The notes under the pieces: model-generated
The model's input: the letters and a program-made list of their open reading frames with translations, nothing else
What the model was told of the DNA's origin: nothing
Databases searched by the model: none
Source: Terriglobia bacterium
Lineage (GTDB): Bacteria > Acidobacteriota > Terriglobia > UBA7540
Assembly (NCBI GenBank): GCA_030041095.1
Contig: JASHON010000094.1
Location: 1-40,549 of the forward strand
Direction: 5' to 3'
Length of the DNA: 40,549 nucleotides
Shown: one piece after another, positions 17,731 through 31,072 of the stretch
Layout of the letters: each line of letters opens with the position of its first letter
How positions within the stretch are numbered: position 1 is the stretch's first letter
Made by a program: the position numbers and the translations under genes

Positions 17731-17864
17731 ACAGGCTGCGGAAAAACTCAACGCCGCCGCGAATGGTGCGCCGGCATCTTGCCGGCCTCCGTTGAATTCA
17801 AGCGAGTTGCCGGCTGGAAGCCGGCGCTGCGTCAACTTCCCAAAAGACTTTTTCCGCAGCCTGT
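17731..17864. repeat. MITE/REP-like composite inverted-repeat element, 134 bp
   Basis: The ends are a perfect 16-bp inverted repeat: ACAGGCTGCGGAAAAA at 17731-17746 and its complement at 17849-17864. Inside is a second palindrome: GCGCCGGCATCTTGCCGGC (17768-17786) against GCCGGCTGGAAGCCGGCGC (17809-17827), 16 of 19 positions complementary. No coding frame is seen in it. A one-ended variant of the outer repeat occurs at 31619-31634. Confidence 0.8.
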
Positions 17865-19318: not shown

Positions 19319-21622
19319 GTGATCGGTGAGGCGGTTTCGCACTACCGCATCCTCGAGAAACTCGGGGGTGGCGGGATGGGTGTGGTCTATAAGGCCGAGG
19401 ACACCAAGCTGGGCCGGTTCGTCGCCCTCAAGTTCCTGCCTCCGCGTCTGGCCCCAGGCCCTCAGTCCCTCGATCGCTTCCAGCGTGAAGCTCGCGCCGC
19501 CTCCGCCCTCAATCATCCCAACATCTGTACCATTCACGACATCGATGAATACCAAGGCCAGCCCTTTATCGCCATGGAGTTGCTGGAGGGGCAGACCCTC
19601 AAGCATCGCATAGGGGAGAAGCCCCTGAAGAGTGATGAGCTGCTTGATTTCGCCATCCAGATTGCCGACGCGCTGGACGCGGCCCACCAAAAGGGCATCA
19701 TTCATCGGGACATCAAGCCGGCGAATATTTTCATCACCACCCGCAGGCAAGCGAAGATTCTCGATTTCGGCTTGGCGAAACTCGCCGGGAGCGCTGGCGT
19801 CCCGCCCGCCGTTCGTGGAGACGGTAAAGATGCGGGCAAGATGCCTGCTCTCCCAGGCGACACGCCCACCGCCTCCATAGACCACGAGCATCTCACCAGC
19901 CCGGGCGCCGTGATGGGCACCATCGCCTATATGTCACCTGAGCAAGCCCGAGGCGAAGAACTGGACCCGCGCACAGACCTGTTCAGTTTTGGCGCTGTGC
20001 TGTATGAAATGGCCACTGGACACGCTGCGTTCGATGGCGCCACCGGCGCGGTAATCTGTCACCAGATTCTTGCTGAAGCTCCAGCGCCGCCGCTCCAGCT
20101 CAATCCGAGTCTGGCGCCCAAGCTTGAAGAAATCATCCTGAAAGCGCTGGAGAAAGATGTTGACCTCCGCTATCAGCACGCCTCAGAGATCCGCACCGAT
20201 CTGAAGCGCCTGAAGCGTGACACGGATTCAGGTCGGGTTGCTGCTGAGAGCGCGGCCACCCCCGGGGCAACCGCCGGCAGCGTCCCGGGCGCACTTCATT
20301 TGCCGCACACGCGGAAGCGTTCCAGGCTCATCGGGCTGCTGGGAGGGCTGGCACTCATCGCGGTGGCCGCGGGAACCTGGCTGATGCTCAGCCGCAGCGC
20401 CCCCAAGCCACCGGGCCCACTGCGAATTGTGCCCTTCAGCGGCCTTTCGGGTCGTGAGGGTCAAGCGGCATTTTCGCCCGACGGCAGCCAGTTGGCTTAC
20501 TTGTGGAACGGCGGAAGTGGGGATACGTTCCACATCTACGTCAAGCTCATCGGCGCCGGCGCTCCATTGCAACTCACTCACGACGCGCATTCTGACTTCG
20601 ACCCGGCCTGGTCGCCTGACGGACGCTACATTGCCTTTCTTCGGTCTGGATCGAGCGGCAGCAGTGAAGAAGTGATCTCCATTCCGGCTCTGGGCGGACC
20701 GGAGCGCCGTCTCGCCGAGATGGATTTGGTGGGGGAAGGGGACCGGTTTCTAACCTGGGCTCCGGATGGCAAATCCTTGGCTATACAACTGGGGCGGCCA
20801 TCAGCCATTGTCCTGGTTTCTGAGGAGAACGGGGAGAAGCGCCAAGTCACGCAGCCCCCCGCAGGGGGTTGGGGTGACTCGGACCCGGCATTTTCTCCTG
20901 ACGGGCGGCGGTTGGCGTTCGCTCGTTGGTCAAACCCGGAGGGAGCCGACATTTATGTGCAAGACCTCAATGGCGGCGAGGCGCGTCGATTGCTGGCGGA
21001 CGGGACCGTGATTTCTGGGCTGGCGTGGACGCCGGACGGCCGAGCCCTTATTTTTTCTTCAGCGCGCTCCGGCCTTCGGACGCTGTTGAAGGTTTCGCTT
21101 TCCGGAGGCGACGTCGAGCCAGTGCCCGGGGCCGGCGAAAATGCCTTTTCGCCTGCGGTTTCGCCGCACGGGCGTCTACTGGCCTACACGAAAGCCCATT
21201 TCAACGTCAATATCTGGCGCATCCGAATAGGGCCTTCAGGAGGGGGAACAGGCCGGGCCACAAAGCTGATCTCTGGGGCTAGCGAGCAGGACGACAGCGA
21301 GCTTTCTCCTGACGGCCAGAGGATCACGTACAAATCCGATGCCTCGGGATACTTTGAAATCTGGGTGGCCAAAGCGGACGGGTCGGACGCGCTCCAATTG
21401 ACATCTCTCCGAAGCTTCTCAGGCACTCCGCGCTGGTCTCCAGACGGCCGCTGGATTGCGTTTGACTCTAGGCCAGGCGCGCAGTCCGGTGTGTTCGTGA
21501 TTGGCGCGGAAGGAGGAGCGCCACCGCCGCGTGACTCCCCCGGAGATGGACGCTTTTGTGCCAAGCTGGTCGCGCGACGGGGGGTCACTCTACTTCTGCC
21601 GAAGCAACGCTGGAGATCTTGA
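19319..21622 (+). CDS. Membrane serine/threonine kinase 1 with PD40 propeller (frameshifted)
   Basis: Residues 8-300 form a PknB-like kinase: Gly-rich loop [10 protein letters not shown] (15-24), K38, HRDIKPAN (129-136) and DFG (149-151), with SPEQ standing in the APE position (206-209). A membrane helix lies at about 337-357, then extracytoplasmic PD40/TolB-type propeller repeats with SPDG(R/S) turns. The activation loop is enlarged by a repeat-derived segment (about 157-182, GSAGVPPAV...GKMPALPG). The start is GTG at 19319, as in kinase 2. Near 21520 the frame shifts: the original reading continues in another frame to 22070, so the last 30 or so residues given here are aberrant. The kinase domain itself appears complete. 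Residues 1-233 nearly match kinases 2 and 3. Confidence 0.85.
19787..19854. repeat. REP-like palindrome inside the kinase 1 activation loop
   Basis: GGGAGCGCTGGCGTCCCGCC(CGC) at the left is complementary at 18 of 23 positions to the right end, which finishes GCCTGCTCTCCC. It encodes AGVPPAV...DAGKMPAL in frame. Matching copies sit in kinases 2 and 3. Confidence 0.75.
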
Positions 21623-22070
21623 GATCTGGAAAATCCCTGTCGAGGGCGGAACAGCCGTGCAAGTGACCCGGACGGGCGGGTTCGAGGCCAGGGAGTCCCG
21701 GGACGGAAAATGGCTTTATTTTAGCAAGCCGCCCTCCCTTCTGGTTGGTGAGAAGGCTAAACCTGGTATCTGGAAGATGCCGGTCGGGGGTGGAGCTGAA
21801 TCGCTGGTCCTTGGCAGGGAAACGTACCGGCTTTGGACAATCGCGGGGCAGTTTCTCTACTTCGTGGACGCGGAAGCCAGGCCTCATGCGACGCTTAATC
21901 GGCTGGACTTGAGCACGGGAGGGATCCGCCAGGTGGCGCAGCTCGAAAAAGATCCGCGCATGGTCTCGTCCGTGACCGGCTTGTCCATAGCTCCCGGCGG
22001 CGACTGGGCCATCTATCCGCAATTTGACGATGTGGCGTCGCGCATTATTCTGATCGAGAACTTTCGTTAA
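21501..22070 (+). pseudogene. Displaced C-terminal part of kinase 1 propeller
   Basis: This frame reads [20 protein letters not shown], then [20 protein letters not shown], and continues to IILIENFR. It is a direct continuation of the PD40 repeats of kinase 1 and ends much as kinase 2 does (VLIKNFQ). The join falls in the run GGAGCGCCACCGCCGCGTGA near 21521-21535, where one extra base (or two missing ones) would explain the shift. The ATG at 21501 is not a natural start. Either the gene is broken or the base is a sequence error. Confidence 0.8.
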
Positions 22071-22173
22071 AGACGCACCGCCAAAGATCGGCCAAATTGC
22101 TCGCACTTTCGGATGTGGAGAAGCCATTTGGTGGGCGGTAAGACCATCGGCTAGTTACCTACACTGGAGGTGG

Positions 22174-22452
22174 GTGTTGTCTTCGTCCTCCAAGTCAATT
22201 CAGGTCAACCAACAGACTAAAGATCGTGCCACACCCGGCAGCCAGAATGGAAGTTTTGAACTGCCTCAAAGTGCCAGCCTGTTTCTTGCGGGCTCGATGG
22301 GGGATCACGTTGGCGGTTTCATCCAGGTTACCTACGAGGGTCAGGCGGATCATTTCAGCCGGGACAACACCGACATCCGTATGGCCCGAGCCCGCCGAGC
22401 GCGCGCTCCCAATGTTCTGCGCTCCCGTAGGCCGCCTCGCTTCGACCGATGA
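22174..22452 (+). pseudogene. Fragment of an exported/outer-membrane-like protein
   Basis: The frame includes GSQNGSFELPQSASLFLAGS, then GDHVGGFIQVTYEGQADHFS and DNTDIRM. This recalls a family of acidobacterial outer-membrane proteins of unknown role, with FxAGR..DHVGxFxQxTYD...FSxDNTDIRYA. After DNTDIRMA the sequence turns into Arg/Ala-rich nonsense and stops. There is no signal peptide or clear start. I read it as a short internal remnant. The family match is from memory of the pattern and is tentative. The flanks (22071-22173 and 22453-22503) hold nothing recognisable. Confidence 0.4.
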
Positions 22453-22503
22453 AGCCCTCATCGCGCACGGGCCCGAGGTCAGCTTTCGCATTCCGTTCGT
22501 TCA

Positions 22504-22995
22504 TCATTCTGCCGCCACTTTAGGAGCAGAGAGCTTTATCTCTTCGCCGGTCTCAAGCAGGCTCTTCAGACCGCTAATGACAGCCGGCCACCCGTTGTTG
22601 ATACCCCTAAATGTGTTCGGGTCTTTCTCGAGATCCTCGGGCAATAGGTTTTCATGAATCAGACGGAGCTTGACGTGCGGACCCATCGGCGTGAGTTCAA
22701 AGGTGACGCGGGAAGGCGCATCGCGCTTTTGAGCGACTTCCGGCTCGTCCTTGGGGTTCCAGGTATAGACCAACTTGCGGCACGGTTCACAGACCAGTAC
22801 CTTGCCAGCATGATCGCCATGCTGTTCCATCCCTTTTGGCGGGAGGATGCGAACCGTTCCACCGGCCTTCAATTCGAGTTCGATTCGAAAACCGAACCAA
22901 TACTTCTCGCTGAAATCGCCGCTCGTCAATGCTTCCCAAAGTTTTTCCGGCGTGGTGCGGATGTACGTTGCATAAACGAATTCTGTTTTCTCCAT
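22504..22995 (-). CDS. SRPBCC / AHSA1-family protein
   Basis: This 163-residue START-like protein begins with FVYATYIRTTPEKLWEALTS and contains YWFGFRIELELKAGGTVRI and RVTFELTPMGPHVKLRLIHE. It ends with NGWPAVISGLKSLLETGEE. This is the AHSA1 (Activator of Hsp90 ATPase homologue 1-like) layout, a helix-grip fold with a hydrophobic pocket; ligands are generally unknown in bacteria. It lies five bases after an ArsR-type regulator gene, a very common pairing, and the two form one operon. Its expression is probably controlled by that regulator. Confidence 0.92.
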   Translation of the reverse strand: MEKTEFVYATYIRTTPEKLWEALTSGDFSEKYWFGFRIELELKAGGTVRILPPKGMEQHGDHAGKVLVCEPCRKLVYTWNPKDEPEVAQKRDAPSRVTFELTPMGPHVKLRLIHENLLPEDLEKDPNTFRGINNGWPAVISGLKSLLETGEEIKLSAPKVAAE

Positions 22996-23000
22996 AGTCC

Positions 23001-23324
23001 CTATCCTTTCTTCTTTCCTTCAAGATTTCTTTTCAAATCGCTCAACGCCTGAAGACGGCCGCGTTCGAATTTGCTGATCCAGCGGTCGGCAATTTCGTTG
23101 ATCGGCACTGGATTAATGAAATGAAGCTTTTCTCTGCCTTGGCGTTTCCACGACACCAGATTTGCGCGTTCAAGAACCGCAAGGTGCTTGGCGACTGCCT
23201 GACGGGTCATCTTTAACCCCTCGCACAGCTCTCCCAGCGTCTGCGCATTTTTGCCGCGCAAACGGTCAAGGAGTTGCCGGCGGCTTGCATCCGCCAATGC
23301 CTTGAAAACGACGTCATCGTTCAT
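23001..23324 (-). CDS. ArsR-family transcriptional regulator
   Basis: This 107-residue winged-helix repressor begins MNDDVVFKALADASRRQLLD and has the recognition helix region ELCEGLKMTRQAVAKHLAVL (about 32-51) and the wing ERANLVSWKRQGREKLHFIN. It lacks the Cys motifs of metal-sensing ArsR proteins, so it probably answers another signal, as other ArsR-AHSA1 pairs do. It is first in an operon with the AHSA1 gene. Two perfect inverted repeats lie directly upstream and are probable autoregulatory sites. Confidence 0.92.
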   Translation of the reverse strand: MNDDVVFKALADASRRQLLDRLRGKNAQTLGELCEGLKMTRQAVAKHLAVLERANLVSWKRQGREKLHFINPVPINEIADRWISKFERGRLQALSDLKRNLEGKKKG

Positions 23325-23334
23325 CTGAACGATA

Positions 23335-23384
23335 GGGAACAGATCAGTTCCCCATGGAGGGATGATATGGAACCTTATGGTTCC
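23335..23384 (-). promoter_or_regulatory. Two palindromic operator-like sites upstream of arsR-type gene
   Basis: Site 1 is GGGAAC-N6-GTTCCC (23335-23352); site 2 is GGAACC-TTAT-GGTTCC (23369-23384). Both are perfect inverted repeats sharing the GGAAC word. They lie 11-60 bases upstream of the regulator start. Site 2 has the AACC-N4-GGTT shape that I associate with operators of ArsR-AHSA1 operons. Confidence 0.6.
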
Positions 23385-23803
23385 CTGTCAAGCTTTTTTT
23401 GCGACGGGCTCGTGTGCAGGACTGGAGGCAGTCTTGAAGCTCTTTTGAAACTCGGATACAGACACCTGACGAGGAAGCAGTGCGTGCTCACGGTGGCAAA
23501 TAGTCCCTGCCCCATCGGCTCGGTTACCGGTAGCTGGCGAGAACCGCCCTTGTATTAAACAGCGATCGGATGCGCAGAATCGCTGCCCGCGGTCCGCCGC
23601 CCAGAGCTGATCGATCTGGGTCAGTTTCATACGGCGATTCATGGTGACCGTGCGGCGTGATGCCCTTCACTGAAAAAGCGGCGACGGCGATAGGCTGAAG
23701 GCTCGCCGTCTTCCCTCGGACAAGTTCCTTGCAAGCGTTGTCACCCAGAGTATACTGGCTGCCGGCAGTTGTACCAAAGCGAAAGAGTTCGGCGAAGGTG
23801 GAG
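23385..23803. other. Gene-free stretch between ArsR operon and mutarotase-like gene
   Basis: No convincing protein is encoded. The sequence separates two divergent transcription units, so it should contain the promoter of the plus-strand gene. I could not place -35 and -10 boxes. Confidence 0.3.
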
Positions 23804-24865
23804 ATGAGGAAACGCCTTATGTGCTTGACCTTAGCCGCGGCACTGATGTGCGCTGCGTCGATTAGTGTTGCGGTTGCCTCGGGAGCGTCTGCATCCAAAT
23901 TCCCGCAAGTCGAGATATCAAACGCTCAAATCCGCGTGAAGTTGTACCTTCCCAATGCGAAGAATGGATACTATCGCGGTACGCGGTTTGACTGGTCAGG
24001 CACGATTGGCAGCCTGGAATACCATGGTCACGAATATTATGGACCGTGGTTCGACAGCGTGGATCCGAAAGTTCACGACTACCGGTTTTTCGGGAACCTG
24101 ATCATCGCCTCGCCTTGTTCGGCGGACTCAGGTCCCGTTGACGAATTCCAGACCAACGGGACAGCTCTGGGTTGGGATGAAGCCAGGGTGGGCGGGACAT
24201 TTATCAAGATCGGGGTGGGCGTGCTTAGAAAGGACGATGCCAACTATGACTTTGTGAAGCAGTACGAGATGGTGAACCCAGGTCGATGGACGGTGGAAGC
24301 GCATCGCCACTCCGTTGAATTCATTCAAGAATTGAATGATGCGTCCTCGGGCTATGGTTATATCTACCGGAAAGTTATCCGGCTCGTAGCGGGCAAGGCG
24401 GAAATGGTGGTTGAGCATCACCTTAGGAATACTGGCCGCCGAACCATTCAGAGCTCCGTGTACAATCACAATTTCCTCGTTCTTGACAAGCAGGCTCTCG
24501 GACCCGATTTCGTTATCACGGTTCCGTTCCAAATTCGGTCGCCCAACCCACCCAGGAAGGAACTTGCCCAGATCCGCGGAAATCGGGTTGTCTACTCGAA
24601 GGTGCTGCAGAACGAGGAGGTTGTGGAAACCCTGCTCGAGGGTTTCGGCGATAGTCCACGAGACAACGAGATCCGGATTGAGAACCGGAGAGTTGGCGCC
24701 GGCGTGAGGATAACTGGGGACCATCCGCTCTCGAAACTCAACCTGTGGTCGATCAGGACCGTGCTGGCAGCGGAGCCCTTCGTGGCCATGACAATTAAAC
24801 CGGGCAGTGAATTCGTTTGGAAAACCACCTACGACTATTACACGCTTCCGTCAAACAGCAGGTAA
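23804..24865 (+). CDS. Secreted protein, galactose-mutarotase-like fold
   Basis: I place the start at the ATG at 23804, where a signal peptide begins (MRKRLMCLTLAAALMCAASI) after AAGGTGGAG; the frame stays open further upstream without protein-like character. The 353-residue product is beta-rich: LPNAKNGYYRGTRFDWSGTI, then LEYHGHEYYGPWFD, VEHHLRNTGRRTIQSSVYNH and, at the end, FVWKTTYDYYT. The pattern suggests the aldose-epimerase/galactose-mutarotase beta-sandwich, which binds sugars. This is inferred from pattern, not from a named family. It is probably periplasmic. It has no obvious operon partner. Confidence 0.7.
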   Translation: MRKRLMCLTLAAALMCAASISVAVASGASASKFPQVEISNAQIRVKLYLPNAKNGYYRGTRFDWSGTIGSLEYHGHEYYGPWFDSVDPKVHDYRFFGNLIIASPCSADSGPVDEFQTNGTALGWDEARVGGTFIKIGVGVLRKDDANYDFVKQYEMVNPGRWTVEAHRHSVEFIQELNDASSGYGYIYRKVIRLVAGKAEMVVEHHLRNTGRRTIQSSVYNHNFLVLDKQALGPDFVITVPFQIRSPNPPRKELAQIRGNRVVYSKVLQNEEVVETLLEGFGDSPRDNEIRIENRRVGAGVRITGDHPLSKLNLWSIRTVLAAEPFVAMTIKPGSEFVWKTTYDYYTLPSNSR

Positions 24866-25357
24866 GCTCGCGGCGACAAGCACGATTCCGTCGAATCGCA
24901 GATTGAGTATGGGGAAGCGGGTCAAGGCTGCCTCGCCCGCCATCTGAGGTCGCGGACTGAGCGTGATAAACCTCAGGGCATCCAACAACGGATCGAACAC
25001 GGTCAGCGCCACGTTGGACAAAGAACTCAATTTCGGCCCACCTGAGCCGCAGCCGGGCGGCTGGTTCGCACCTTCGCGGACTACTCGTGCGTTGTCGCCG
25101 AGGGTATACCCATAGCTGTTGGGAGCACCCGACCATCCAACAAAGATTAGCGAGTTACTTGGCGATTTCCCGCCAGCAACCGACAACCGCACCACCTTGC
25201 GCCGGGCGCCTTTGGAATACAGGACTTAAGATCTGGCGCCAATCACCGTCCAAAATGAGCTGCAGGCGCAGGCCCTGCCCAACCCAAAGTCCAAAACGAA
25301 AGGCCGAAAAGCCCGTATTCGTTTGTTACTGTTCGTTTGTTGCTGTTCGTTTGTTGC
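24866..25357. other. Gene-free stretch before kinase 2
   Basis: A minus-strand frame (24851-25195) is open for 114 codons, but it has no ribosome site, no recognisable domain and no partner; it may be decayed coding DNA. The right end contains the 14-bp tandem repeats described separately. Confidence 0.3.
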
Positions 25358-25359
25358 TT
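25318..25359 (+). repeat. Three tandem 14-bp repeats upstream of kinase 2
   Basis: TTCGTTTGTTACTG, TTCGTTTGTTGCTG and TTCGTTTGTTGCTT follow one another without gaps. The last unit runs into the -35 box of the kinase 2 promoter at 25358. Kinase 1 retains only a GTGTTGCTTGACT remnant of this context. Confidence 0.85.
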
Positions 25360-25386
25360 GACTAGGCATCAACTGCGACTTATGAT
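25358..25386 (+). promoter_or_regulatory. Sigma-70 promoter of kinases 2 and 3
   Basis: TTGACT (25358-25363) and TATGAT (25381-25386) are 17 bases apart, 30 bases before the GTG start. The stretch from -10 to the start codon is nearly identical to that of kinase 1 (GGCAACGTTTG, then GAGGGTTTTCCCATC). Confidence 0.8.
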
Positions 25387-25415
25387 GGGGCAACGTTTGG
25401 GAGGGTTTTCCCATC

Positions 25416-28241
25416 GTGATCGGTGAGGCGGTTTCGCACTACCGCATCCTCGAGAAGCTCGGGGGTGGCGGGATGGGTGTGGTCTACAAGGCCGAGGACA
25501 CCAAGCTGGGCCGGTTCGTCGCCCTCAAGTTCCTGCCTCCGCGTCTGGCCCCGGGCGGTCAGTCCCTCGAGCGCTTCCAGCGCGAAGCTCGCGCCGCCTC
25601 CGCCCTGAATCATCCCAACATTTGCACCATTTATGACATTGACGAATGCGAGGGCCAGCCGTTTATCGCCATGGAGTTGCTGGAGGGCGAGACCCTCAAG
25701 CATCGCATCGGGGCGAAGCCCCTGAAGACGGATGAGCTGCTTGATTTTGCGATCCAGATTGCCGACGCGCTGGACGCGGCGCATGCGAAGGGGATCATTC
25801 ATCGTGACATCAAGCCGGCGAATATTTTCGTCACCACCCGCAGGCAGGCGAAGGTTCTGGATTTCGGCCTGGCGAAACTCGCCGGGAGCGCCGGCGTTCC
25901 GCCCGCCGTTCGTGGAGACGGTCAAGATGCGGGCAAGATGCCTGCTCTCCCAGGGGAGACGCCCACCGCGTCCATAGACCACGAGCACCTCACGAGTCCG
26001 GGCGTGACGATGGGGACGGTGGCTTACATGTCTCCGGAGCAGGCGCGGGGCGAGGACTTAGACCCGCGCACGGACCTGTTCAGCTTTGGGGCTGTGCTCT
26101 ACGAGATGGCGACGGGGCGTACACCCTTTCCCGGCAGCACGTCGGCGGCGATATTCGGCGCGATTCTGCACGAAGCCCCCACGCCGCCTCTGCGACTGAA
26201 TCCGCAGTTGCTTCCGAAGCTGGAGGAGATCATCACCAAAGCGCTGGAAAAGGATCGCGAGTTGCGCTACCAGAGTGCCGCCGAAATGCGCGCCGATTTG
26301 AAGCGGTTAAAGCGCGATACGGATTCAGGGCGGGGCGTTCCTTCGCTCCGCCCAGGGCAGACCTCGGCGGGTGAACGCGACGTAGGGGCAGGCCTTGTGC
26401 CTGGCCTCGGTTCCGGCAGCGAGAGCGCGAGCCGTCAAGATGCCGGCGCTACGGGCGATAGCTCCGATTCGCAGATGATCGCGGGCCTGGTGAAGCGCCA
26501 CAAGAAGGGCATCCTCGCACTGATGGCTGCCGGGATCGTGATCGCTGCCGCCCTCATCTATGCCCTCTATCGCGCCGCGAGCCATGCGCCGGTGTCCCCC
26601 GCCGGGCTGGAATTTACGCGTGTGACGGACAGCGGCGACGTCCAGGTCGCGGACATCTCACCGGATGGCAAGTATGTGGCCTACGTGCGGGAAATGGGAG
26701 GCAAGCAAAGCCTCTGGCTGAAGCAACTGGCCACGGACAGTGACGTCCAGATTGCGAGCCTGGGCGAGGATGTTTGCCCCGGCCTGGCGTTCTCGCCGGG
26801 TGGCAGCTACGTCTATTTCGTCCGCCAAAACGCCCTGAAACCTAGCGGCAATCTTTACCAGGTGCCGTTCCTGGGCGGAACTCCCAGAAAGATACTGGGG
26901 GGGATCTCCGGCCCGCCCGCATTTTCGCCTGATGGTCAGCGGCTCGCCTTTGTGCGGGGGACCGCGGCTGGCGAGGACAGCTTCTTGTTGACCGCCTCGC
27001 TGGATGGCTCTGGCGAGCGGGTGTTGGCATCCTATAAGCAGCCCGACTTCATCATTCCGGCCCGCGTCGTGTGGTCTCCGGATGGCAAGACCCTCGCCTT
27101 CGTTCACCGGCGTACCCACGCGGTTTTGACCACCATCGCGGCGGAAGGTGGCGAGGCCCAGCCGGTGGCGGGCGCAACTTGGCTCCTGATCGGGGATCTC
27201 GCGTGGCTCCCGGGAAGCCGCGACCTGGTCGTGTCGGGCTTTCAGTTAGGGTCCTTTTCCTTTCAGCTTTACGAAGTCTCATTGGAGGGAGGCGGGGCCC
27301 GGCAAATCATTCACGACCTTTCGAGGTACACGGGAGTTCGGGCGAGCGCGGACGGAAAGACGTTGCTGGCCCTCCAGGAGCACATTCTTGCCACCCTCCA
27401 GGTCGCCGCGCCAGGCAAAGAGTCCCAAGCCAAGACCTTGAGCGCCACGAACCAGACCCGCGACGGCCAAGCCGGCTTGGCATGGACGCCTGACGGGAAA
27501 ATTGTCTATTACTCGGTTTTTAACGGACGCTACAATCTTTGGGAGATGGGAGCAGACGGCTCGAACCCCCAGAGGCTCACCAACTACGAAGGATCCTCGA
27601 CTTCCATTTACCCCGTTGTCTCTCTGCCAGGCGGCTTCATTGCCTTCCAGCATTTTGATATAAATGGGGTCAACATCTGGCGAATGGATATGGACGGTAG
27701 CAACCTGAAACAGCTTACCCACGGTAAGGTGGACCTCAGTCCCGCCGTGTCGCCGGATGGCCGGTGGGTGGTTTTCACACGGGCTGAGAGCGGCAAGTAT
27801 TTTCTGATGAAGGTTCCGAGTGAAGGCGGCCCAGCCTCTGAGTTGACGGACTACGGCTCGGAGAATCCATCCGTCTCCCCGGACGGAGAGTGGATCGCCT
27901 GTTTTTACTTTCCCAGCCCAGATCAACCAGTCAGCCTGGCGATCATCCCTTTCGCGGGAGGCCAACCGGTCAAGGTTTTCCCGCTGCCCGCTACTGCCGG
28001 GACTCCCCGCCATGACATCCTCCTTCATTGGACCCCCGATGGTCGAGCCATCGCTTTCATCAACAGCGTGAATGGCGTGGGTAATATCTGGGAACAGCCA
28101 GTCGCGGGCGGTCCGCCGAAGCCTATGACGCATTTCACTTCCGACGAGATTTTCTGGTTCGACTGGTCCCGCGATGGGCGCCTCGCCCTCTCACGCGGCA
28201 CCGACACCACCGACGCGGTGTTGATCAAGAATTTTCAATGA
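25416..28241 (+). CDS. Membrane serine/threonine kinase 2 with PD40 propeller
   Basis: This 941-residue protein has a PknB-like kinase (8-300) with K38, H129-R130-D131, N136, D149-F150-G151 and SPEQ at 206-209. A low-complexity linker (about 303-355) follows, then one membrane helix (about 365-386) and a long extracytoplasmic PD40/TolB-type propeller with repeated SPDGK/TPDGK turns. The activation loop has the same repeat-derived insert as its paralogues, and the linker carries a second repeat-derived tract (GAGLVPG, DAGAT). It starts at GTG 25416 behind its own promoter and overlaps kinase 3 by four bases. The kinase face would phosphorylate cytoplasmic Ser/Thr targets; the propeller is the probable sensor. 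The ligand is unknown. Confidence 0.92.
25884..25951. repeat. REP-like palindrome inside the kinase 2 activation loop
   Basis: This is the same 68-bp in-frame sequence as in kinase 1, beginning GGGAGCGCCGGCGTTCCGCC and ending GCCTGCTCTCCC. It differs from the kinase 1 copy at only a few bases. Confidence 0.75.
26380..26450. repeat. REP-like sequences in the kinase 2 linker
   Basis: GGGGCAGGCCTTGTGCCTGG (from about 26390) is a palindromic tract coding GAGLVPG. A GATGCCGGCGCTACGGG half-palindrome, coding DAGAT, lies near 26438-26454. Kinases 1 and 3 have different sequence here. Confidence 0.6.
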
Positions 28242-31072
28242 TTAACGGGACGATTTCGCACTACCGCATCCTCGAGAAGCTCGGGGGTGGCGGGATGGGT
28301 GTGGTCTACAAGGCCGAGGACACCAAGCTGGGCCGGTTCGTCGCCCTCAAGTTCCTGCCTCCGCGTCTGGCCCCGAACCCTCAGGCCCTCGAGCGCTTCC
28401 AGCGCGAAGCACGCGCCGCCTCCGCCCTCAATCATCCCAACATTTGCACCATTCATGATATCGATGAATACCAAGGGCAGCCGTTTATCGCCATGGAGTT
28501 GCTGGAGGGCGAGACCCTCAAGCATCGCATCGGGGCGAAGCCCCTGAAGACGGATGAGCTGCTCGATTTCGCGATCCAGATTGCCGACGCGCTGGACGCG
28601 GCGCACGCGAAGGGGATCATTCATCGTGACATCAAGCCTGCGAATATTTTCGTCACCCCCGGCAGGCAAGCGAAGGTTCTGGATTTCGGCCTGGCGAAAC
28701 TCGCCGGGAGCGCCGGCGTCCCGCCCGCCGTTCGTGGAGACGGTCAAGATGCGGGCAAGATGCCTGCTCTCCCAGGGGAGACGCCCACCGCCTCCATAGA
28801 CCACGAGCACCTCACCAGCCCGGGCGTGACGATAGGGACGGTGGCTTACATGTCTCCGGAACAGGCGCGGGGCGAGGACTTAGACCCGCGCACGGACCTG
28901 TTCAGCTTTGGGGCTGTGCTCTACGAGATGGCGACGGGGCGTACACCTTTTCCCGGCAGCACGTCGGCAGCGATTTTCGGCGCCATTCTGCACGAAGCCC
29001 CCACGCCGCCTTTGCGACTGAATCCGCAGTTGCTCCCGAAGCTGGACGAGATCATCACCAAAGCGCTGGAAAAAGACCGAGACCTGCGCTACCAGAGTGC
29101 CGCCGAAATGCGCGCCGATTTGAAGCGGTTAAAGCGCGACACCAGTTCTGGCCGGTCCGAAGTGGCGTCCTCACCGCCAGCCGCAGGGGTGGCACACGAG
29201 GCGCTGCAGGAGCCAGCGTCGGATTCCGTCCTCGTCGCCAACGTTATCAGGCGGCACAAGGAAGCTGCGATCGGGGTTGTTGCCTTGGTGGTTGCCCTGG
29301 CTGGGCTCGCATGGTTCTTCCTGCGCAGCACTCCTCAAGCTCCTTCAGCCGAGTTAAAACAGACGCGCTTGACCTTCAACTCCAGCAAGGACGCTGTCGT
29401 GACCGACGCCATTTCTCCCGATGGCAAGTACTTGGCTTACTCCGATCCGGCGGGAATTCATGTCAAGCTGCTCTCGACCGGCGAAGAGCGCGTGATCCCA
29501 AGGCCGGCCGGAGTCCCCTCCGACGCGGGGTGGGATGTCGTATCGTGGTTTCCCGACGGCACGCAATTGCTCGGTACCACATCGGAACCGGGTGGGCGCC
29601 AAAGCATCTGGACGGTCTCGGTGCTGGAGCAATCTCCGCGCGAGCTTCGCGAGGGCGCAGGAGCTTGGGAGGTCTCGCCGGACGGGATGCGCATCGCCTT
29701 CTCTCCCGAGTCCGGGCCCTCGGGTGAAGCTCGTGAAATCTGGGTGATGGGCAGCCAGGGAGACAGCCCACAGAAGGTCCTCGCGCTGGGAGCAAATGAT
29801 TGGCTGTACGCGGTGCACTGGTCGCCGGACGGACAGCGCCTGGCGTACCTTAGGATCCAAGGCATTTGGGACGTGCACCAGACGTCGATCGAGACCTGCG
29901 ACCTAAAAGGGGCGAGCCGGACAGTGCTTGTGCGGGGAGCGGAGGGGTGGCCTGCAGGTTTTGACTGGCTTCCGGACGGGAGAATCGTCTATTCGCGGAA
30001 GGAATCGTTGCGCTCGAGTGACGAGAACCTTTGGCAAATTGGGACTGACACCCGTACAGGCGCACCCACCGGCAAACCGAAACGTATTACTCACTGGGCT
30101 GGATCTTACGTCCATGGACTGAGCGCCAGTGCGGACGGGAAGCGGCTGGTGCTCCGAAAGGCGAAACTTCAGGGGCAGGTTTACCTGGGAGAGCTCGCGG
30201 CAGGAGGGACGCGCATGAATCCCCCTCGGCGGCTGACCAATGACGACGCCTCCGATATGCCCAGCGCATGGACGCCCGACAGCAAAGCCGTATTGTTCCA
30301 ATCAGACCGTGACGGTTCCAGGGGGATTTTCAAGCAGGGAGTCTTCGAGAACACTGCCGAGCCCGTGGTCACAGGATCACGGCATAACACCGGGGCTCCG
30401 TTCGTCAGCCCCGATGGCGCCTGGATTCTTTACTTGGAGCGTCCGAAAACGCACGCCAATCCCACCCCTCCGGATCGCCTGATGCGAATCCCTGTGAGCG
30501 GCGGAGTACCCCAGTTTGTGCTGGAGACGCGGAATGGTCGGGGCTACGGGTGCGCTCGGGTGCCGTCAAGCCTCTGTGTGCTCCTCGAGGCGAGCCAGGA
30601 TGAAAAACGGCAGACGCTAACGGCATTCGACCCACTGAGGGGCAGGGGCAAGGTCCTCAGGACCATCGAGCAAGGCCCCTCGACGCTCCACGGAGCCGCG
30701 TCCCTGGCCGCGTTATCTCCCGATGGTTCAACCTTTGCGATTCCGAGATATGGCGAGGCCGAGATTCACATCCGCTTGCTTTCGCTCTCAGGTGGCTCGG
30801 ACCGCGAGATTACGGTGAAGCGCTTGCCGAACCTTGCTTGGGGCAGTCTTGACTGGTCTCCTGATGCGAAGGGGCTTTACGTGAGCTCCGTCTCGCCTCA
30901 AAACAGGACGCTTCTCTACGTGGATTTGAAGGGGAATGCCCGGGTGCTGTGGCAGCTCAAAGGATCGGGTGGTCTTGATAATTTTTGGGGCATACCTTCA
31001 CCAGACGGCCGCTACCTCGCCATAGCGGGCAGTGCCATCGACAGCAACGTGTGGATGCTGGAAGGTTTCTGA
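28238..31072 (+). CDS. Membrane serine/threonine kinase 3 with PD40 propeller
   Basis: This 944-residue paralogue starts at ATG 28238 inside the kinase 2 stop (ATGA overlap), so it is co-translated. The kinase domain (about 8-300) has the same K38, HRDIKPAN and DFG residues and the same activation-loop insert. It begins [12 protein letters not shown] instead of [12 protein letters not shown]. The linker (303-340) is unlike that of kinase 2. The membrane helix is at about 343-363, followed by a PD40-type propeller that differs strongly from kinases 1 and 2. It ends ...[20 protein letters not shown] and EGF. Kinases 2 and 3 may phosphorylate each other or form mixed dimers; this is inference from the overlap only. 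Confidence 0.92.
28706..28773. repeat. REP-like palindrome inside the kinase 3 activation loop
   Basis: Third copy of the 68-bp in-frame sequence, from GGGAGCGCCGGCGTCCCGCC to GCCTGCTCTCCC, at the same codon position as in kinases 1 and 2. Confidence 0.75.

Follow-up and report, generated by a model that had tools for sequence, protein, structure and literature searches.

Palindromic repeats of unrelated families in the activation loop of Terriglobia protein kinases, a probable recurrent site of in-frame insertion

Three kinase genes with repeat-derived inserts

The DNA analysed here (hereafter 'the window') is a contig of 40,549 nucleotides from a Terriglobia bacterium (GenBank assembly GCA_030041095.1, contig JASHON010000094.1; C78 among the 207 contigs of a 4.88 Mb genome), and it carries three protein kinase genes, here called K1, K2 and K3, each of which harbors within its activation loop a 68-bp imperfect palindrome of the repetitive extragenic palindromic (REP) type. 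All three products belong to the Hanks type of kinase (with matches to PF00069 at E 9e-43 or better), and the catalytic HRD, DFG and SPEQ motifs are invariant across a 32-row kinase alignment. A first-pass annotation of the window had placed the translated palindrome between the DFG and SPEQ motifs of each kinase and had described it as kept through their duplication, and both observations are confirmed: the insert begins at residue 157 of each open reading frame (ORF), and the encoded peptide differs among the three only at a single position (K or Q), with 13 residues before it and 10 after it.

In each gene the insert consists of two hairpins spaced 22 nucleotides apart, and its ends read GGGAG...CTCCC. 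When the folding of the DNA was compared with that of 200 shuffled sequences, the K1 insert gave a z score of -3.00 (with no shuffle equal or better), the K3 insert gave -1.90 (8 shuffles as good), and the K2 insert, which on its own would fail this comparison, gave -0.88 (38 shuffles as good). The kinase palindromes are real but decayed.

Table 1. Features of the window that bear on the kinase inserts (all coordinates are those of the window)
Feature	Coordinates	Strand	Remarks
K1 insert: 68-bp imperfect palindrome, REP-type inverted dimer, in activation loop	19787..19854	+	hairpins 19793-19809 and 19832-19848
K2 insert, same type as that of K1	25884..25951	+	hairpins 25890-25906 and 25929-25945
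K3 insert, same type as that of K1	28706..28773	+	hairpins 28712-28728 and 28751-28767
Kinase K1: Pkinase, then PD40 beta-propeller repeats	19319..21622	+	Pfam PF00069 E 1.9e-43; PF07676 E 9.4e-37
Kinase K2: Pkinase and PD40	25416..28241	+	PF00069 E 4.5e-44
Kinase K3: Pkinase and PD40; start overlaps end of K2	28238..31072	+	PF00069 E 9e-43
K2 linker after kinase domain: remnants of two repeat types (GAGLVPGLG, RQDAGAT)	26385..26454	+	hairpin 26431-26447, 1 mismatch
MITE-like (miniature inverted-repeat transposable element) unit, intergenic, with 19-nt terminal inverted repeats (95% complementary)	17731..17864		common inverted REP dimer at its core, 17770-17825; no predicted gene

The reading frame of K1 breaks within the propeller, and PD40 repeats resume in another frame past the stop at 21622 (window 21501-22070), which reflects either a frameshift or an assembly error. 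The linker element that follows the kinase domain of K2 folded with a z score of -1.24 (22 of 200 shuffles as good), and is at best a degraded remnant.

Intergenic dimers of the same plan

A search of the window for the two-hairpin plan with its 22-nucleotide spacing returned four matches (at 17770, 19793, 25890 and 28712), with no fifth anywhere in the window and none in 100 shuffles; on that count, chance resemblance was rejected. The first of these matches, at 17770-17825, is intergenic, and its DNA folded with a z score of -4.18 that none of 200 shuffles equalled.

Across the genome, the half GGCAAGATGCC with its arms (GCNGGCAAGATGCCNGC, allowing up to 2 mismatches) is present in 255 copies, as against 11 for a reversed control. 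The half GGCGTCCCGCC with its arms gave 239 matches against 46 for its control, many of them related forms with other loops; with no mismatch allowed it was found at two sites only, both within the K1-K3 kinases. The complete dimer pattern was matched 128 times in the window's own genome (a count in which a few perfect dimers are scored on both strands), once in the same-genus genome G001, once in G024 and not at all in G011, and the control was matched in none of the four. Intergenic copies, which the first-pass annotation would have counted in favor of its claim, are abundant. In sampled stretches beyond the window, where 62% of the DNA is predicted to be coding by a simple codon-score gene finder, 0 of 94 distinct perfect-core hairpins fell within predicted genes; allowing up to 2 mismatches and adding loci found with a second pattern placed 9 of 114 in predicted genes, these being the three kinases, the K2 linker, a linker of methionyl-tRNA synthetase, and four doubtful cases. 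From the sampled stretches, 52 distinct intergenic dimers, all with the 22-nt spacing, were combined into a consensus, and the hairpins of the kinase inserts agreed with it at 28 to 29 of 34 positions.

That intergenic consensus bears a GTAG tag (GTAGC), and is often found within a MITE-like unit bounded by CAGGCTGCGGAAAAACTC; the 19-nt terminal ends of the unit at 17731-17864 recur around many of the dimers in the genome. In four of the genome's eight Y1_Tnp genes (L228, L229, L231 and L232), the distance to a REP hairpin or to the terminal repeat of the MITE is no more than 300 bp, a proximity that offers a weak pointer to the machinery. One of these Y1 transposase genes, L229, is flanked on both sides by a REP or MITE end.

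Related kinases and the length of the loop

The best named relatives of the kinases are from Acidobacteria and Terriglobia, and the insert peptide is present in 0 of 80 of them, on which ground a conserved kinase motif was rejected as its origin. One of the 80 (L092) resembles a decayed GAGLVPAQGRPQGAP insert that all of the labels described below had missed. The activation loops of 77 of the 79 named relatives measured span 43-55 residues, and those of K1-K3 span 61; the median for uninserted loops is 50 residues among 90 same-family kinases, and 48 among all kinases without a typed insert. The net gain in K1-K3 is thus about 11-13 residues, and the figure of about 25 put forward in the first-pass annotation was an overstatement.

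In AlphaFold2 models, residues 154-196 of the K1 loop have a pLDDT (predicted local distance difference test score) below 50, as do residues 151-190 of a relative without the insert (L085), while the remainder of the kinase is mostly modelled with confidence. Since the loop scores low both with and without the insert, the insert is predicted to extend a loop that is floppy in any case.

Unrelated palindromes at the same loop site

In other kinases of the same family, the site immediately after DFGLAK encodes peptides derived from different palindromes, among them VGAGLVPAQGRPQGAPL, VGARHGVPL, VGAGFKPAP, VGAIHESPL, MLRSAQHDI..VTLSASEGSR and PSPSGRG. The types of palindrome represented there in the DNA include GTAGGGGC...GCCCCTAC, MLRSAQHD, and CCCTCTCCC...GGGAGAGGG, and in some cases (such as GTAGGGGCGATTCATGAATCGCCCCTAC in L261) the loop DNA is a perfect palindrome. 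A typed palindrome peptide was found in the loops of 25 of 115 family kinases drawn from 19 genomes, representing four unrelated repeat families, and in none of 10 kinases from outside the family; 13 of these 19 genomes contribute one or more. These counts are to be read with the composition of the sample in mind: the kinases were selected by similarity to the inserted K1, the insert labels are regular expressions composed after the loops had been inspected, the strict typed counts exclude 17 kinases from the first sample whose repeat-like peptides are weak (LGxRGxGL in 14, LTPDPRS in 3), the L303 and L342 regions yielded no loop, and a kinase encountered by way of its palindrome (L393) was excluded from every kinase count.

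These palindromes are repeated genome-wide, and the type of insert in a kinase is one of those that its genome carries. The pattern GTAGGGGCN{8,36}GCCCCTAC has a total of 276 matches in 25 family genomes and its control has none there; the MLRSAQ core reaches 168 copies per genome (control 0 in all 27 genomes), and CCCTCTCCCNNNGGGAGAGGG reaches 83 (control 0). Genome G000 matches the AAGATG hairpin 197 times when 1 mismatch is allowed, which ranks it first of 27 genomes (the next has 80), and has no CCCTCTCCC...; G001 has 11 CCCTCTCCC... copies, lacks GTAG palindromes, and has a kinase insert of the CCCTCTCCC type.

Only two of the analyses are free of such labels, namely a count of strict palindromes (perfect inverted repeats with arms of at least 10 and a spacer of at most 8) in 194 kinase genes, and a recoding test. 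The count gave 13 strict palindromes in 14,082 bp of loop, as against 18 in the other 400,209 bp (binomial p 9e-12), or 13 against 15 once identical sequences had been collapsed within each genome; synonymous recoding of the loops (200 runs) left a mean of 0.4 strict palindromes and never more than 3. Kinases with strict palindromes in the loop make up 11 of the 100 recovered by genome search, 0 of the 80 named relatives, and 0 of the genome's own 14. Those outside the loop lie mainly in the N-lobe, some 50-65 residues ahead of DFG, or between the kinase domain and the membrane span, at 160-206 residues past DFG.

The family kinase ORFs (204,774 bp) contain 24 exact GTAG palindromes, of which 10 (or 11, depending on the limits drawn for the loop) fall in 8,958 bp of loop; the genomes contain 276 in 113.58 Mb, both of these last figures being sums over 25 genomes. 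All but one of the 24 within kinase ORFs are read in the frame that begins GTA; another frame would give TAG.

Turnover of the inserts

Insert types were mapped on a kinase tree that was built without the loop, a quick tree in which 57 of 111 inner branches (many deeper forks among them) are unsupported. The nine insert types of the 25 typed kinases require 21 changes on that tree (19 when the 17 weakly typed rows are removed), and shuffled types require 23-25; the inserts are therefore inherited to a slight degree and change often. Within the K1-K3 group, K1 pairs with a G001 kinase, L258, which has a different insert (Shimodaira-Hasegawa approximate likelihood-ratio test, SH-aLRT, 99), and the same-genus neighbors L237 (from G010) and L255 and L324 (from G023) likewise differ in their inserts (SH-aLRT 99).

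Palindromes in other genes

Among 46 GTAG palindromes in 40 stretches of three genomes, 10 lie within predicted genes, one of which is a kinase with repeat-like peptides in two further loops. By their Pfam matches, other genes that bear a GTAG palindrome encode methionyl-tRNA synthetase, TRCF-like, MutS2-like, DNA polymerase B and MnmE proteins, an assortment that accords with the list of REP-bearing genes in PMC3733652, where genes for repair and for tRNA enzymes are well represented. The linker of methionyl-tRNA synthetase that precedes its tRNA-binding domain holds different palindromes in two genera (L072:1501-1517 in the window's genome and L410:1229-1256 in G003), and is a second shared landing site.

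Two genes hold more than one repeat each. The G021 kinase L393 (2775-4199) has repeat-like peptides in three separate loops, with VGAIHESPL preceding helix C, VGAGLVPAL..GRPRGAPL preceding HRD, and PSPASGRG..GPGEG inside the activation loop. A DNA polymerase B-like gene (L408:575-2500) contains a GTAG palindrome together with a GSGLGTRDSGL..PNPEPRTPNPE repeat peptide that is akin to those of several kinase loops.

How the loop may acquire its palindromes

The repeat-derived architecture of the inserts, their abundance in intergenic DNA, their absence from relatives, the recurrence of unrelated palindromes at one site and the rapid turnover there are best explained, with a probability that we place at about 0.78, by the in-frame insertion of REP dimers into a disordered, length-tolerant activation loop where insertion and turnover recur. 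According to this explanation, two REP hairpins in inverted orientation, like those that crowd the intergenic DNA of the genome, would have entered the loop of the ancestor of K1-K3 in frame (most likely once), and would then have been duplicated along with the kinase gene. The stretch after DFGLAK is probably exposed, disordered and tolerant of changes in length, such that in-frame palindromes landing there would survive, and the loop would gain, lose and swap palindromes of whichever families the genome carries. Movement would presumably depend on a REP-associated Y1 transposase, and tolerance, above targeting or advantage, may be the main cause of the concentration in the loop. The interpretation given in the first-pass annotation is partly supported, in that its mobile-repeat reading holds, while the altered regulation that it suggested is hypothetical; its author had regarded the presence of the peptide in all distant homologues, together with a lack of intergenic copies, as fatal to the idea, and the reverse was found on both points.

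Several observations weigh against insertion of this kind. The 22-nt spacer of the kinase inserts agrees with the intergenic consensus at only 5-6 of 22 positions, which is about chance, and the inserts end in GGGAG (GGGAGC) rather than GTAG; no parent copy was found, the kinase spacer being absent outside kinases among the roughly 100 dimers listed for four genomes. The strict, label-free measure counts K1-K3 as having no palindrome, and loops of 61 and 62 residues that lack a typed insert also occur among the 80 named relatives, in one kinase each. Finally, GTAG palindromes are about 460 times denser in the loop than in the genome as a whole, which exceeds what simple tolerance readily explains. 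Given the poor agreement of the spacer, direct descent from the commonest intergenic dimer is not demonstrated, and the likeness to intergenic repeats that the first-pass annotation had noted lies in the two-hairpin plan and in the hairpins themselves. Because the kinase copies lack the GTAG tag, they are named here as REP-derived, and not as canonical GTAG REPs.

The excess in the loop over the genome average indicates that targeting, core exchange or selection may supplement tolerance. A bolder proposal, in which the activation loop is a landing pad where unrelated palindromes are inserted or exchanged faster than tolerance predicts, and in which the cell uses the resulting variety to separate the switching or substrate choice of paralogues, is conceivable but doubtful. 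If recurrent in-frame insertion, the favored explanation, is true, selfish intergenic repeats actively supply new sequence to the loop that switches protein kinases, replacement would be quick enough for inserted and uninserted sister kinases to be compared within a genus, and the old question of whether in-frame palindromic elements are tolerated or used would become directly testable with paired enzymes.

A preference of the element's machinery for the site, or some feature of the DNA encoding DFGLAK that attracts palindromes which tolerance then merely permits, would agree with the GTAG densities (1,116/Mb in the loop, 117/Mb in the kinase ORF and 2.4/Mb in the genome, with the loop also above intergenic DNA by a rough estimate) and with the many inserts that begin 2-3 codons past DFGLAK (TTGAC-GTAGGGG in L242, L255, L324 and L269). 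It is nonetheless unlikely, in that unrelated repeat families share the site and the same kinases have palindromes in other surface loops and in linkers; moreover, common start points may have been inherited among paralogues, and the sample was picked by similarity to an inserted query.

Selection for diversity in the loop, whereby an altered activation loop limits cross-talk between paralogues or modifies switching in expanded sets of kinases, is less probable still. The fast turnover of insert types between close paralogues and same-genus neighbors, and the concentration of palindromes in a regulatory loop, are what such selection would produce, but such turnover is expected just as much of a neutral loop, and palindromes are also found in places without a known role (the juxtamembrane linker, the N-lobe loop and the methionyl-tRNA synthetase linker). 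To much the same degree, we consider it improbable that each lineage possesses one old palindrome whose core has been overwritten by exchange with intergenic copies, in place of repeated insertion: while six core types have common outer arms (GTAGGGGC/GCCCCTAC), and while the nesting of K1 and L258 within K2/K3, despite the different insert of L258, is what would follow from a swap or conversion among K1-K3, no arms are common to any two of the REP dimer, MLRSAQ and SPSGRG types, or to any of these and the GTAG type, and some loops (L283 and L298) contain two palindromes. That the loop peptide is ordinary protein sequence, with a likeness to REP words that arose by chance or from GC-rich codon bias, is scarcely credible in view of the four window matches against none in shuffles, the 128 genomic dimers against a control of 0 and the lack of the peptide in all 80 relatives, even though the spacer similarity at chance level and the unremarkable fold of K2 would fit it.

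Relation to known systems

In-frame REPs are already known from Rickettsia, as Rickettsia palindromic elements (RPEs), and from Opitutus; RPE insertions typically add 20-30 residues. The kinase inserts resemble RPEs in being palindromes that lie in frame within the genes of working proteins, and differ from them in that their hosts are Acidobacteria-like and that several unrelated families strike one loop. Abergel and colleagues reportedly described, in 2006, an RPE in the guanylate kinase of Rickettsia conorii, the excision of which was tested at the bench; that case likewise involves an in-frame palindrome in an enzyme, although the enzyme is a nucleotide kinase and the site is not the activation loop of a protein kinase. 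A search of the literature found no report of REPs in kinase activation loops, and the recurrence of unrelated palindromes in such a loop is what is new here.

The closest known systems, judging from the portions of the two papers drawn on here, are the GTAG REPs and their dimers (Di Nocera et al. 2013, PMC3733652), with which we group the REP doublets forming hairpins, or REPINs (PMC3116915). The shared features are high-copy short palindromes with GTAG on the intergenic copies, a mostly intergenic location with some in-frame genic copies, and an arrangement as inverted heterodimers with spacers that are alike in length and differ in sequence; the kinase copies depart from GTAG REPs in their missing tag. 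Within the same passages of PMC3733652, Acidobacteria are named only for transposases associated with terminal inverted repeats (TIRs), and no protein kinase appears among the REP-bearing genes. RPE-4 and RPE-6 are described there as carrying a CGTC tag, unlike the elements analysed here, which have GGGAG...CTCCC at the kinase ends, GTAG as the intergenic tag, and no CGTC. A further parallel from that source is recB of Xanthomonas campestris and X. oryzae, which contains different REPs at about the same place, just as different repeats occupy about one position of the homologous kinase genes; recB is a single gene in two species, whereas the kinase loop has been struck in 13 of the 19 genomes sampled.

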